From Actinomycetota bacterium (GTDB lineage: Bacteria > Actinomycetota > Thermoleophilia > Solirubrobacterales > Solirubrobacteraceae): DNA of 64,000 nt. Position 1 is the stretch's first letter. Every line of letters starts with the position of its first letter. Below, piece by piece: positions 6,894-47,950 of the stretch. Made by a program: the position numbers and the translations under genes. The DNA lies in NCBI GenBank assembly GCA_005885515.1, contig VAWK01000019.1, positions 38,832 through 102,831 of the forward strand. Reading direction: 5' to 3'. The notes beneath the pieces were generated by a model. The model did no database searches. It was given only the letters and a program-made list of their open reading frames with translations, and was not told the origin of the DNA.

Positions 6894-7883
6894 GTGAGCG
6901 TGGCCGGCGCCCCGCCGCAGACCCCCGGCGCCAAGCAGACCCCGGGCGCCCCGCAGCAGACCCCCGGCGCCCCGCAGCAGACCCCCGGCGCCCCGCAGCA
7001 GACCCCCGGCGCCCCGCAGCAGACCCCCGGCGCCCCGCTGCAGACCGGCACGCGGGTGGGCGAGGCGATCGCGGGTGCCGTGACCGCGATCGCGGCGGGC
7101 GGGTGCGAGACCCCGCGCCTGGATGCGGAGCTGCTGCTCGCGCACGTGCTCGGCGTGGAGCGCGAGCGCCTGCTGAGCGACGAGCGCCTCGAGGTGAGGG
7201 GCGGCGCGGTGCGCGCGTTCCAGCTCGCGGTGCGCCGGCGCGCGATCGAGCGCGAGCCGGTCGCCTACATCGTCGGCCGGCGTGCGTTTCGCCGCCTGCA
7301 GCTGGGCGTCGATCGCCGCGCGCTGATCCCGCGTCCGGAGAGCGAGCTGCTCGTAGAGGCTGCGCTCGAGCTCCCCGCCGGGGCGCGCGTGCTGGATGTC
7401 GGCACGGGCTGCGGCGCGATCGCGCTCGCGCTCAAGCACGAGCGGCCCGACCTCGTCCTCAGCGGCAGCGACTGCAGCTCGGCAGCGCTCGACCTGGCCG
7501 CGGAGAACGCAGCGCGCCTGGGGCTCGACGTGCGCTGGCTGCACGCGGACCAGCTGAGCGGCGTGCCGGACGAGTTCGACGCGGTGCTGGCGAACCTGCC
7601 GTACGTGGCCGACGCCGAGCGGCGGTCGCTCGCGCCCGAGATCCTGCGGCACGAGCCGCCCGGCGCGCTGTTCGCGGGTCCCGACGGGCTCGCCGCGATC
7701 GCCGCCCTGCTCGCGCAGCTGGCACGGCGGGCGACGGTGGCGATGCTGGCGCTCGAGGTGGGCGCGGGCCAGGCGCCGGCGGTCGTGCGCATGACGCAGG
7801 CCGCCGGCTTCGCGCACGTGCGCCGCGAGCGCGACCTCGCGGGTATAGAGCGGATCGTGGTGGGGGAAGGGCGCCGCCGATGA
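6894..7883 (+). CDS. prmC: Release factor glutamine methyltransferase, with a repeat-bearing N-terminus
   Basis: Uses S-adenosylmethionine to methylate the GGQ glutamine of release factors. From about residue 55 the protein is typical: VGEAIAGAVTAI, RLDAELLLAHVLG, IPRPESELLVEAAL, SAM motif VLDVGTGCGAIAL, and the substrate-binding NLPY (NPPY in most relatives). Before that is a Pro/Gln/Ala tail made of a tandem TPGAPQQ repeat. GTG at 6894 includes the tail. GTG at 7056 would give a normal-length PrmC without it, and neither has a convincing ribosome-binding site. The stop overlaps the next gene's ATG (ATGA), so those two are coupled. Confidence 0.9.
   Translation: MSVAGAPPQTPGAKQTPGAPQQTPGAPQQTPGAPQQTPGAPQQTPGAPLQTGTRVGEAIAGAVTAIAAGGCETPRLDAELLLAHVLGVERERLLSDERLEVRGGAVRAFQLAVRRRAIEREPVAYIVGRRAFRRLQLGVDRRALIPRPESELLVEAALELPAGARVLDVGTGCGAIALALKHERPDLVLSGSDCSSAALDLAAENAARLGLDVRWLHADQLSGVPDEFDAVLANLPYVADAERRSLAPEILRHEPPGALFAGPDGLAAIAALLAQLARRATVAMLALEVGAGQAPAVVRMTQAAGFAHVRRERDLAGIERIVVGEGRRR
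6939..7043 (+). repeat. 21-bp tandem repeat at the start of prmC
   Basis: Five units of 21 bases, four encoding exactly TPGAPQQ and the last TPGAPLQ, preceded by a shorter TPGAKQ copy. The unit is in frame. If translated it gives a flexible hydrophilic tail that family members normally lack. If translation starts at 7056 it lies in the leader. Copy number is likely to vary between strains. Confidence 0.85.
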
Positions 7884-8512
7884 GCGTCGGGCTCGAGCGC
7901 GACGACGCCAGCCGCCTCGAAGCGTGCCTCGCGAGCGGCGGCGTGGCGGTGTTCCCGAGCGACACCGTGTACGGCGTCTGTTGCGACCCCGAGAATGAGG
8001 CCGCCGCCCGGCGGATGTACGCGCTGAAGGGGCGCTCGATGAGGCGCGCCAGCGCGGTGATGTTCTTCTCGCTGCCGGCCGCGCTCGCGGCGCTCGAGGA
8101 GCTAACCGAGAGCGAGCGCCTGGTGCTCGAGGGGCTGCTGCCCGGCCCGGTGACGCTGCTGCTGGCTAACCGCGCGCTGCGCTTCGCGCCGGCCTGCCGC
8201 GAGGATCCGGCCACGCTCGGCTTGCGCGTGCCCAGCCTGCCAGGCCCTCTGGCGGCGCTTCGTGGCATGCGCCGGCCGGTGATGCAGTCGAGCGCCAACC
8301 TGTCTGGCCAGCCCGACGCGCGCACGCTGGCGCAGGTACCCCGCAGCCTGCTTGAGGGCGCCGATCTGGCGCTGGACGGCGGCGAACTCCCGGGCGTCGC
8401 CTCGACCGTGCTCGACATGCGCGACTTCGAGGCCGAAGGCCGCTGGCATTTGCTGCGCGAGGGCGCGCTCGGTCGCGAGGACGTGCAGCGGAAGCTCGCG
8501 TCGCTGGGGTGA
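7880..8512 (+). CDS. L-threonylcarbamoyladenylate synthase (Sua5/YciO/YrdC family)
   Basis: Makes threonylcarbamoyl-AMP from threonine, bicarbonate and ATP, the first step of t6A37 tRNA modification. The 210-residue single-domain protein carries the YrdC signatures VAVFPSDTVYGVCCDP near the N-terminus, MYALKGRSMRRA (the K-R-x substrate site), LPGPVTLLL, and SSANLSGQPDA. It corresponds to the YrdC/YwlC form without a C-terminal Sua5 domain. ATG at 7880 overlaps the prmC stop by 4 bases. The same prmC-sua5 adjacency is known in Bacillus and Mycobacterium. The much longer ORF-track frame (from 7103) reads antisense-like sequence through prmC and was not used. Confidence 0.9.
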   Translation: MSVGLERDDASRLEACLASGGVAVFPSDTVYGVCCDPENEAAARRMYALKGRSMRRASAVMFFSLPAALAALEELTESERLVLEGLLPGPVTLLLANRALRFAPACREDPATLGLRVPSLPGPLAALRGMRRPVMQSSANLSGQPDARTLAQVPRSLLEGADLALDGGELPGVASTVLDMRDFEAEGRWHLLREGALGREDVQRKLASLG

Positions 8513-8549
8513 GCCGCGGCGCCAGCGCTCCTGCTAGCCTCGTGATCAG

Positions 8550-8644
8550 GCCGCCGCGACTGGCGCAGGAGATGGAATCGACCATCGGGAAGCGGCGAGC
8601 CGCCACGCCGCGCGCCTGGGCAATCGCAGCAGTGCTGCTGCGAT
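8550..8644 (+). promoter_or_regulatory. ZTP riboswitch (pfl motif) upstream of glyA
   Basis: The leader contains the diagnostic blocks in order: CGCGACTGGCG, a hairpin ending in ATCGGGAAGCG, and the pseudoknot block GCGCCTGGGCA. These correspond to the pfl consensus (GACUGGCG, GGGGAGC, CCGCCUGGGC). The aptamer is about 8550-8622. An 8-bp hairpin (ATCGCAGC / GCTGCGAT, 8623-8644) follows, then an ideal AAGGAGG ribosome-binding site at 8657-8663. There is no T-tract after the hairpin, so control at translation start is more likely than termination. ZTP accumulates when 10-formyl-THF is short, and glyA restores one-carbon units, so an ON switch is expected. Confidence 0.9.
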
Positions 8645-8668
8645 CAGATAGCTGCCAAGGAGGCCATC

Positions 8669-9967
8669 GTGTCCGAGCCCAGCAATGATCATCTGAACCG
8701 CCCGCTGTCCGAGGTGGATCCTGAGATCGCCGAAGTGCTCCAGCGGGAGCTGGAGCGAGAGCAGCGCACGCTCGGCCTGATCGCCTCCGAGAACTTCGCG
8801 CCGCGGGCGGTGCTCGAATGTCAGGGCTCGGTGCTGACGAACAAGTATGCCGAGGGCTATCCGGGCCGCCGCTACTACGGCGGCTGCGAGTGGGTGGACG
8901 TGTCTGAGCAGCTGGCGATCGACCGCGCCAAGGCGCTGTTCGGCGCAGAGCACGCCAACGTGCAGCCGCACTCCGGAGCGCAGGCCAACACGGCGGTGTA
9001 TCACGCGCTGCTGGAGCCCGGCGACACGATCATGGGGCTGTCGCTGGCGCACGGCGGCCACCTCACGCACGGGATGAAGGTCAACGTGTCGGGCCGCCTG
9101 TATGACATCGCCGCCTACGAGGTCGACCCGCACACGAGCCTGATCGACATGGACGCGGTGACGCGGCTCGCGCGCGAGCGCAGGCCGAAGCTGCTGCTGG
9201 CGGGCTGGTCGGCGTATCCGCGCCGGCTCGACTTCGCGCGCTTCCGCGAGATCGCCGACGAAGTGGGCGCCGTGCTGATGGTGGACATGGCGCACTTCGC
9301 CGGGCTGGTGGCCGCGGGGCTGCACCCGAACCCGCTCGCCTACGGGGCGGACGTGGTCACGACGACGACGCACAAGACGCTCGGCGGCCCGCGCGCGGGG
9401 GCGATCCTGTGCAAGGCCGAGCTGGCCAAGAAGATCGACTCGGCGGTGTTCCCCGGCCAGCAGGGCGGTCCGCTCGAGCACGTGATCGCGGCCAAGGCGG
9501 TCGCCTTCAAGCTGGCCGCGGGCGAGCCGTTCGCCGAGCGCCAGCGGCGCTCGGTCGCCGGAGCCCAGGCGCTGGCGGCGCAGCTGCTCGGAGCCGGCCA
9601 CGGTGTCAACGTGCTCACCGGCGGCACCGACGTGCACCTGATCCTGGTCGACCTGCGCGAGAGCGAGCCGGAGCTCACGGGCAAGCAGGCGGAGGACCGG
9701 CTTGCGGAGATCGACATCGCGGTGAACCGCAACGCGGTCCCGTTTGACCCGCGCCCGCCGATGCAGGCGTCGGGACTGCGCATCGGCACGCCGGGGCTGG
9801 CCTCGCGCGGGCTGCGGCTGGAGGACTTCGAGGAGGTCGGCAGGATCCTGGCGAGCGCGCTGACGCCCGAATACGACTCGCGCGCGCCCGAGCTTCAGGC
9901 GCGCGTCGGCGCGATCGTCGAGCGCTACCCGGTGTATGAGGAGCTCGGCGCCCACGCGCCCGCGTAG
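8669..9967 (+). CDS. glyA: Serine hydroxymethyltransferase
   Basis: PLP enzyme interconverting serine and glycine while charging tetrahydrofolate with a one-carbon unit. The 432-residue product shows [14 protein letters not shown], the [15 protein letters not shown] substrate loop, [13 protein letters not shown], the [13 protein letters not shown] segment, and the PLP lysine in [12 protein letters not shown]. The GTG start is fixed by the AAGGAGG site 5 bases upstream. A ZTP riboswitch occupies the leader, so expression is expected to rise under folate stress. The stop region holds a small duplication of GCGCCCGCGTAGGG (around 9957-9994). In Bacillus glyA also lies upstream of the atp operon. 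Confidence 0.96.
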
Positions 9968-47559: not shown

Positions 47560-47920
47560 GGGGACGACAGGCTTCGACGCGGTCGGTTCGCGAGGATGGT
47601 GGCGAGTCGAGGTTCCGGGCGGCCTCGTAAAACACCCGGAAAACCATAAGTGCGGACTCTCACGAGTACGCCCTCGCCGTTTAGCAACTAGCTAAATCGT
47701 GAGGTCTCGGCCCCCGCTCGCCTGCGGCTGGGAAGACCGGGATCAGAAAGCAGGCTCACCCGGCGAGGTCCGCCTTCGCCGAACCGGGGAAGTCAAAGAA
47801 GGCTGGTCTCCCGCAACCCGGCCGGCGAGGCGCGCGGGAGATGAGATCAGAGCGCCGGCTACGCTCGTAGAAGCCATCCTCACGCGATCGTGGACGTGGG
47901 TTCGATTCCCACCGTCTCCA
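47560..47920 (+). ncRNA. ssrA: Transfer-messenger RNA
   Basis: Rescues stalled ribosomes by acting first as tRNA-Ala and then as mRNA for a degradation tag. The 5' end GGGGACGACAGGCTTCGACG and 3' end GTGGGTTCGATTCCCACCGTCTCCA pair as an acceptor stem (GGGGACG with CGTCTCC) and a T-arm. The tag frame starts at 47652: GCG GAC TCT CAC GAG TAC GCC CTC GCC GTT TAG, giving ADSHEYALAV, with a second in-frame type stop close by. The terminal CCA is not encoded, because CTTTTTTT follows directly. Length is 361 nt. Confidence 0.96.
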
Positions 47921-47921
47921 C
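47908..47921 (+). repeat. Candidate attachment-site core at the tmRNA 3' end
   Basis: CCCACCGTCTCCAC covers the 3' T-stem and acceptor strand of tmRNA and is repeated exactly at 61929-61942. The 3' end of ssrA is a well-known target for integrases, which leave a copy of the sequence at the far end of the insert. See the findings for the full comparison. Confidence 0.6.
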
Positions 47922-47950
47922 TTTTTTTGCCTGCAAATGGGCAGTTTTTG
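47922..47950 (+). terminator. T-rich stretch after ssrA, possible terminator
   Basis: A run of seven T follows the tmRNA acceptor strand immediately. It is followed by CTGC-AAATGG-GCAG, a weak 4-bp hairpin, then TTTTT. Termination of ssrA transcription here is plausible, though the stem is short. The region to 47965 is strikingly AT-rich for this genome. Confidence 0.4.

Follow-up and report, generated by a model that had tools for sequence, protein, structure and literature searches.

In the riboswitch class that senses ZMP and ZTP, glyA was one of the five targets met most often when the motif was first described (PMC2864571), the established targets are glyA, folD, purH, fhs and pfl (PMC2864571, PMC7266159), and it is established that the class switches genes ON and that its ligand acts as an alarmone (PMC7266159). 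A tandem ZTP/glycine arrangement has been reported before a gene that starts serine synthesis from 3-phosphoglycerate (PMC9481103), while in Pectobacterium carotovorum the ligand of the ZTP riboswitch was needed for expression in a translational lacZ fusion under antifolate (PMC10117056). The action of ZTP aptamers on translation has been less studied than terminator-type control.

Here, we have analysed a stretch of 64,000 nucleotides (the window) from a genome of the Solirubrobacterales (2.69 Mb, 79 contigs, 92% complete), in which two ZTP matches are found: one before glyA, inside the window, and one before serC (phosphoserine transaminase). A sequence-only reading had proposed a ZTP riboswitch in front of glyA, with all conserved blocks of the pfl motif in order, and had named the Rfam ZTP covariance model as the check. 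In a cmscan search of the 64-kb window, the model RF01750 (ZMP-ZTP) matches positions 8546-8628 of the plus strand over its full length (model positions 1-86) with 55.2 bits (E = 3.1e-06), where the gathering score is 39, so that the identification and the completeness of the blocks have both been confirmed. The parts of the aptamer are the following:

8546..8628, plus strand: ZMP/ZTP riboswitch aptamer, RF01750 (cmscan score and covariation in 42 aptamers)
8551..8557, plus strand: 5' strand of P1, pairing with 8592-8598 (Rfam alignment and pair counts)
8562..8565, plus strand: pseudoknot strand GGCG, pairing with CGCC at 8613-8616 (invariant in 42/42 aptamers)
8572..8585, plus strand: P2 hairpin, AUGG..CCAU (Rfam alignment and pair counts)
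8592..8598, plus strand: 3' strand of P1 (Rfam alignment and pair counts)
8607..8621, plus strand: P3 with the ligand-binding loop, GCC..CGCCUGGGC (Rfam alignment and pair counts)

The conserved blocks are GACUGGCG at 8558-8565, P2 at 8572-8585, GGGAAGCG at about 8587-8594, and P3/L3 at 8607-8621 with CGCCUGGGCA; the interval 8550-8644 that had been assigned to the switch is thus the aptamer plus the hairpin that follows it. Only one other Rfam match in the whole window exceeds its threshold, a tmRNA gene at 47560-47923 of the plus strand (169.4 bits to RF00023).

In an alignment of 42 aptamers, the structure made up of P1, P2, P3 and the pseudoknot has 96.4% of its cells paired; none of 500 shuffles reaches any of the measures, and shifting the partner by one to three columns abolishes the pairing signal. 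P1 and P2 covary, with 8 pairs changed on both sides, while P3 and the pseudoknot hardly vary and therefore contribute no covariation: the complementary strands GGCG of J1/2 and CGCC of L3, which we take to form the pseudoknot on the model of established ZTP aptamer structures, are unvarying in 42/42. In the window aptamer, the outer pair of P2 is A-U where most aptamers have G-C, i.e. a compensatory change, and the outermost pair of P1 is non-standard. Folding of the window sequence by itself is uninformative, being no better than that of its shuffles (z -0.14). The window copy is an ordinary member of the known ZTP riboswitch class, and its ligand is presumably ZMP or ZTP.

The gene that directly follows the switch had been read as serine hydroxymethyltransferase with a strong ribosome-binding site; the gene is confirmed, and a Shine-Dalgarno sequence stands before it:

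8658..8663, plus strand: Shine-Dalgarno sequence AGGAGG, 5 nt before the GTG (sequence; at the same place in relatives)
8669..9967, plus strand: glyA, serine hydroxymethyltransferase, 432 aa, GTG start (NF000586, 571.7 bits, E 7e-172)

Across the order, 84 of 201 genomes carry a ZTP match. The 122 loci lie before serC (73), glyA (44) and others (5), the last being three loci before serA, one apparent serC leader cut by a contig end and one locus with no such gene; the serA assignment was checked in one of its three cases (PGDH, 403 bits over a 298-residue piece). This suggests that ZTP in this order acts chiefly on the supply of serine, its aptamers preceding serC more often than glyA. The linkers of the three serA (phosphoglycerate dehydrogenase) loci (L066, L073 and L117) have a GC-rich stretch and no U-tract. 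In genome G142, a third ZTP aptamer (L018, 1501-1582, 61.7 bits) is followed by the beginning of a serC-type linker, then by no serC, glyA or serA, with a tRNA-like 3' end downstream; it has the appearance of an orphan left behind by a partial duplication. ZTP aptamers before glyA are also found in records labelled Microbacterium, Planococcus (perhaps mislabelled), Pseudoclavibacter and Arthrobacter. The suggestion of a special actinobacterial variant has thus not been upheld: the same arrangement is standard in the Solirubrobacterales and the ZTP-glyA pairing recurs in other actinobacterial records.

The comparison of the sequences upstream of the aptamers has revealed a conserved element that abuts P1:

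8532..8540, plus strand: putative extended -10 element TGC-TAGCCT, TGCTAGCCT, with the hexamer at 8535-8540 (conservation in 115/115 loci)

The pattern TANNNT occurs 17-24 nt upstream of the core GACUGGC in all 115 loci that have enough sequence for the comparison, against an expectation of 0.38 derived from the density of the motif further upstream, and in 103 of the 115 a G stands two bases ahead of the TA, as in the extended -10 form. No conservation of a -35 element is seen across the 115 loci, where -35 matches equal those of shuffles, and a consensus promoter with both -35 and -10 was not found for glyA of the window. By its form and place, the element probably gives glyA a promoter of its own, with a transcript that begins at the edge of the aptamer: the usual spacing would put the start at the base of P1 (about 8546-8548). 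The stop codon of tsaC is located at 8510-8512, about 20 nt before the -10 element, and the conservation of the latter makes a promoterless riboswitch read only from tsaC unlikely. By eye, four actinobacterial leaders from outside the order have a similar upstream layout. Further upstream, the open reading frame of prmC (release-factor methyltransferase) starts at 6894-7040 of the plus strand with TPGAPQQ repeats from near-identical tandem units, and the true prmC start may be located further downstream.

As for the level of control, 22-53 nt separate the P3 strand from the start codon (assigned by script) in 115 leaders, with medians of 33 for glyA and 36 for serC, and the only T run of note is a TTTT in one linker, no leader having a longer one. 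Leaders of this length leave no room for both a terminator and a ribosome-binding site, and they are devoid of U-tracts, which favours translational control. In the window, no intrinsic terminator overlapping the 3' strand of P3 was found: there is neither a U-tract nor a terminator-like site. By the exclusion of terminators and from the clear cases described below, translational control appears to be the best reading for the group. The sequence-only reading had also preferred translational to transcriptional control, citing the hairpin after the aptamer, which does indeed have no T-tract; the preference stands on the 115 short, terminator-free leaders, while the hairpin does not serve as its proof.

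8623..8644, plus strand: perfect hairpin AUCGCAGCAG-UG-CUGCUGCGAU (lineage-specific; single copy in its own genome)

This inverted repeat, 10 bp without a mismatch around a centre of 2 nt, is matched by only 6 of 20,000 shuffles of the linker, which rules out a chance product; it occurs once in the genome within 3 mismatches, which rules out a dispersed repeat; and among the loci sampled it is confined to this one genome, which rules out a conserved expression platform, the longest perfect stem in the linkers of relatives being 6 bp. Since it does not overlap the 3' strand of P3, is self-contained and forms in all three constrained states tested, it is not a ligand-dependent element of the usual type. 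In a relative (G081), GGGCACTCAGATAGCTGTC takes the place of what in the window is GGGCA, followed by the hairpin and by CAGATAGCTG, so that the hairpin appears to have been inserted into an ancestral linker: the window linker is 47 nt long, 22 of which are the hairpin, and the remaining 25 nt are near the 27-37 nt of genus relatives. The hairpin is probably a lineage-specific structured spacer, and not the switch.

Two strands near the start of glyA could pair with the 3' strand of P3:

8653..8660, plus strand: UGCCAAGG, candidate sequestering strand (by complementarity)
8677..8682, plus strand: GCCCAG in codons 3-5 of glyA, another candidate strand, complementary to CUGGGC at 8616-8621 (unconstrained minimum-energy fold)

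The first, which overlaps the Shine-Dalgarno sequence in part, could form 7 pairs with CCUGGGCA at 8615-8622, with one mismatch; the second is missing from the corresponding position of most relatives. Within this genus, glyA shows no better complementarity between P3 and the Shine-Dalgarno region than 62 control gene starts do: the window duplex comes to -12.5 kcal/mol, where the controls have a mean of -12.45 and a median of -12.2, and the proposed anti-Shine-Dalgarno helix of the window is about 3 kcal/mol worse than its alternatives. In 86% of the 14 serC leaders of the genus, the cost of opening the Shine-Dalgarno sequence (aptamer free to pair minus aptamer locked) is higher than in chimeras; among its 16 glyA leaders the figure is only 56%, i.e. 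no difference, and in the window alone the sign is reversed. A conserved anti-Shine-Dalgarno strand in glyA of this genus is thus unsupported against both the control gene starts and the chimeras. In a divergent group of glyA leaders, GGUGCCC next to the Shine-Dalgarno sequence is complementary to the P3 strand GGGCACC, beyond the level of the control gene starts (z test p = 0.003, over 10 loci that come, as do all the loci compared, from related species and hence are not independent). Eight divergent loci (L015, L032, L043, L045, L048, L051, L062 and L102; about 50% identity) carry the near-perfect match, GGUGCCC or GGUGCUC, between the Shine-Dalgarno sequence and the AUG. Judged by its complementarity, this group is the clearest translational ZTP platform among the loci compared; masking of the ribosome-binding site by the window aptamer is plausible, not above controls, and clear only in the divergent group.

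The reading that we consider probable for the window is an extended -10 promoter of its own followed by a ZTP riboswitch that exerts ligand-ON, translational control of glyA. Transcription would start at the 5' edge of P1, the aptamer being the first structure made; in the absence of ligand, P3 and the pseudoknot would be weak, and the P3 3' strand UGGGCA would pair around the Shine-Dalgarno sequence and the start region, keeping glyA translation low. A shortage of 10-formyl-THF would let ZMP/ZTP accumulate and lock P3 and the pseudoknot, which would free the ribosome-binding site and yield more SHMT to feed one-carbon units. Of this scheme, the aptamer, the gene, the second target serC, the conserved -10-like element and the lack of terminators have been observed, whereas we infer the ligand, the ON direction, the translational level, the exact sequestering pairs and the transcription start. 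The targets serC, glyA and serA serve to synthesise serine and to convert it into one-carbon units, as a ZTP response would lead one to expect.

The alternative that survives best, which we regard as unlikely, is control by Rho, by RNA decay or by translation-coupled termination inside glyA, where the aptamer would expose or hide a loading or cleavage site and any effect on the ribosome-binding site would be secondary: the linkers of relatives are often C-rich and poorly structured, which would suit access by Rho or a nuclease, and this genus has no clear anti-Shine-Dalgarno pairing, but an open ribosome-binding site needs C-rich, unstructured linkers just as much. It is quite improbable that in this genome the aptamer belongs to a broken or constitutive switch, decoupled from the ribosome-binding site by the inserted hairpin; the reversed sign in the opening test and a hairpin of the Shine-Dalgarno and start region, predicted with and without the aptamer strand, point that way, but all conserved aptamer positions and the compensated P2 pair are kept, the Shine-Dalgarno sequence, the start and the -10 element are intact, and the linker less its hairpin is close in length to those of relatives. 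A transcriptional ON switch, with the hairpin as a U-tract-less terminator or pause site antagonised by the ligand-bound aptamer, is very improbable: many ZTP riboswitches have been described as working through a terminator that overlaps P3 (PMC2864571, PMC13273304) and a strong hairpin does lie just after P3, but the leader has no U-tract or terminator-like site, and the hairpin begins past the P3 strand, so that ligand binding would not exclude it, persists in every constrained state and is absent from the sampled relatives.

Returning to translational control from a promoter of its own, we tentatively extend it, at somewhat less than balanced confidence, to a fixed minimal module of the Solirubrobacterales: an extended -10 element with no -35, an aptamer at about +1 and a linker of 22-53 nt into the ribosome-binding site, placed on serC, glyA and serA, through which ZTP would regulate serine supply as a regulon, and into which the hairpin would have been inserted in this species with no loss of function. 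With the window copy, the presence of a ZTP riboswitch is confirmed in an actinobacterial lineage that has been little studied, and the terminator-free leaders with variable linkers could serve the study of how the ZTP aptamer acts on translation.

In comparison with known systems, the locus has the same blocks, the same P1, P2, P3 and pseudoknot strands and the same glyA target as the pfl RNA motif (RF01750), but has no P3-overlapping terminator, a short leader to the Shine-Dalgarno sequence and a hairpin inserted in the linker. With the pfl riboswitch of Clostridium beijerinckii and the ZTP riboswitch of Fusobacterium ulcerans it has in common the aptamer and, presumably, the ligand and the ON direction; these two act transcriptionally, by strand displacement with a terminator (PMC10085676, PMC7484762), whereas the window has no terminator. 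The glycine riboswitch (RF00504) serves the same glycine, serine and one-carbon node with a different aptamer and ligand, and does not occur at glyA of the window; in Streptomyces and others (L127, L130, L132, L139 and L141), glycine riboswitches are located about 1.3-2.1 kb upstream of glyA, replacing ZTP. The riboswitch of P. carotovorum is of the same aptamer class and proteobacterial. The class, the target and the logic of the window switch are already known; the present analysis adds a layout in which the promoter abuts the aptamer and, measured against the papers cited here, serC as the principal target of the order.
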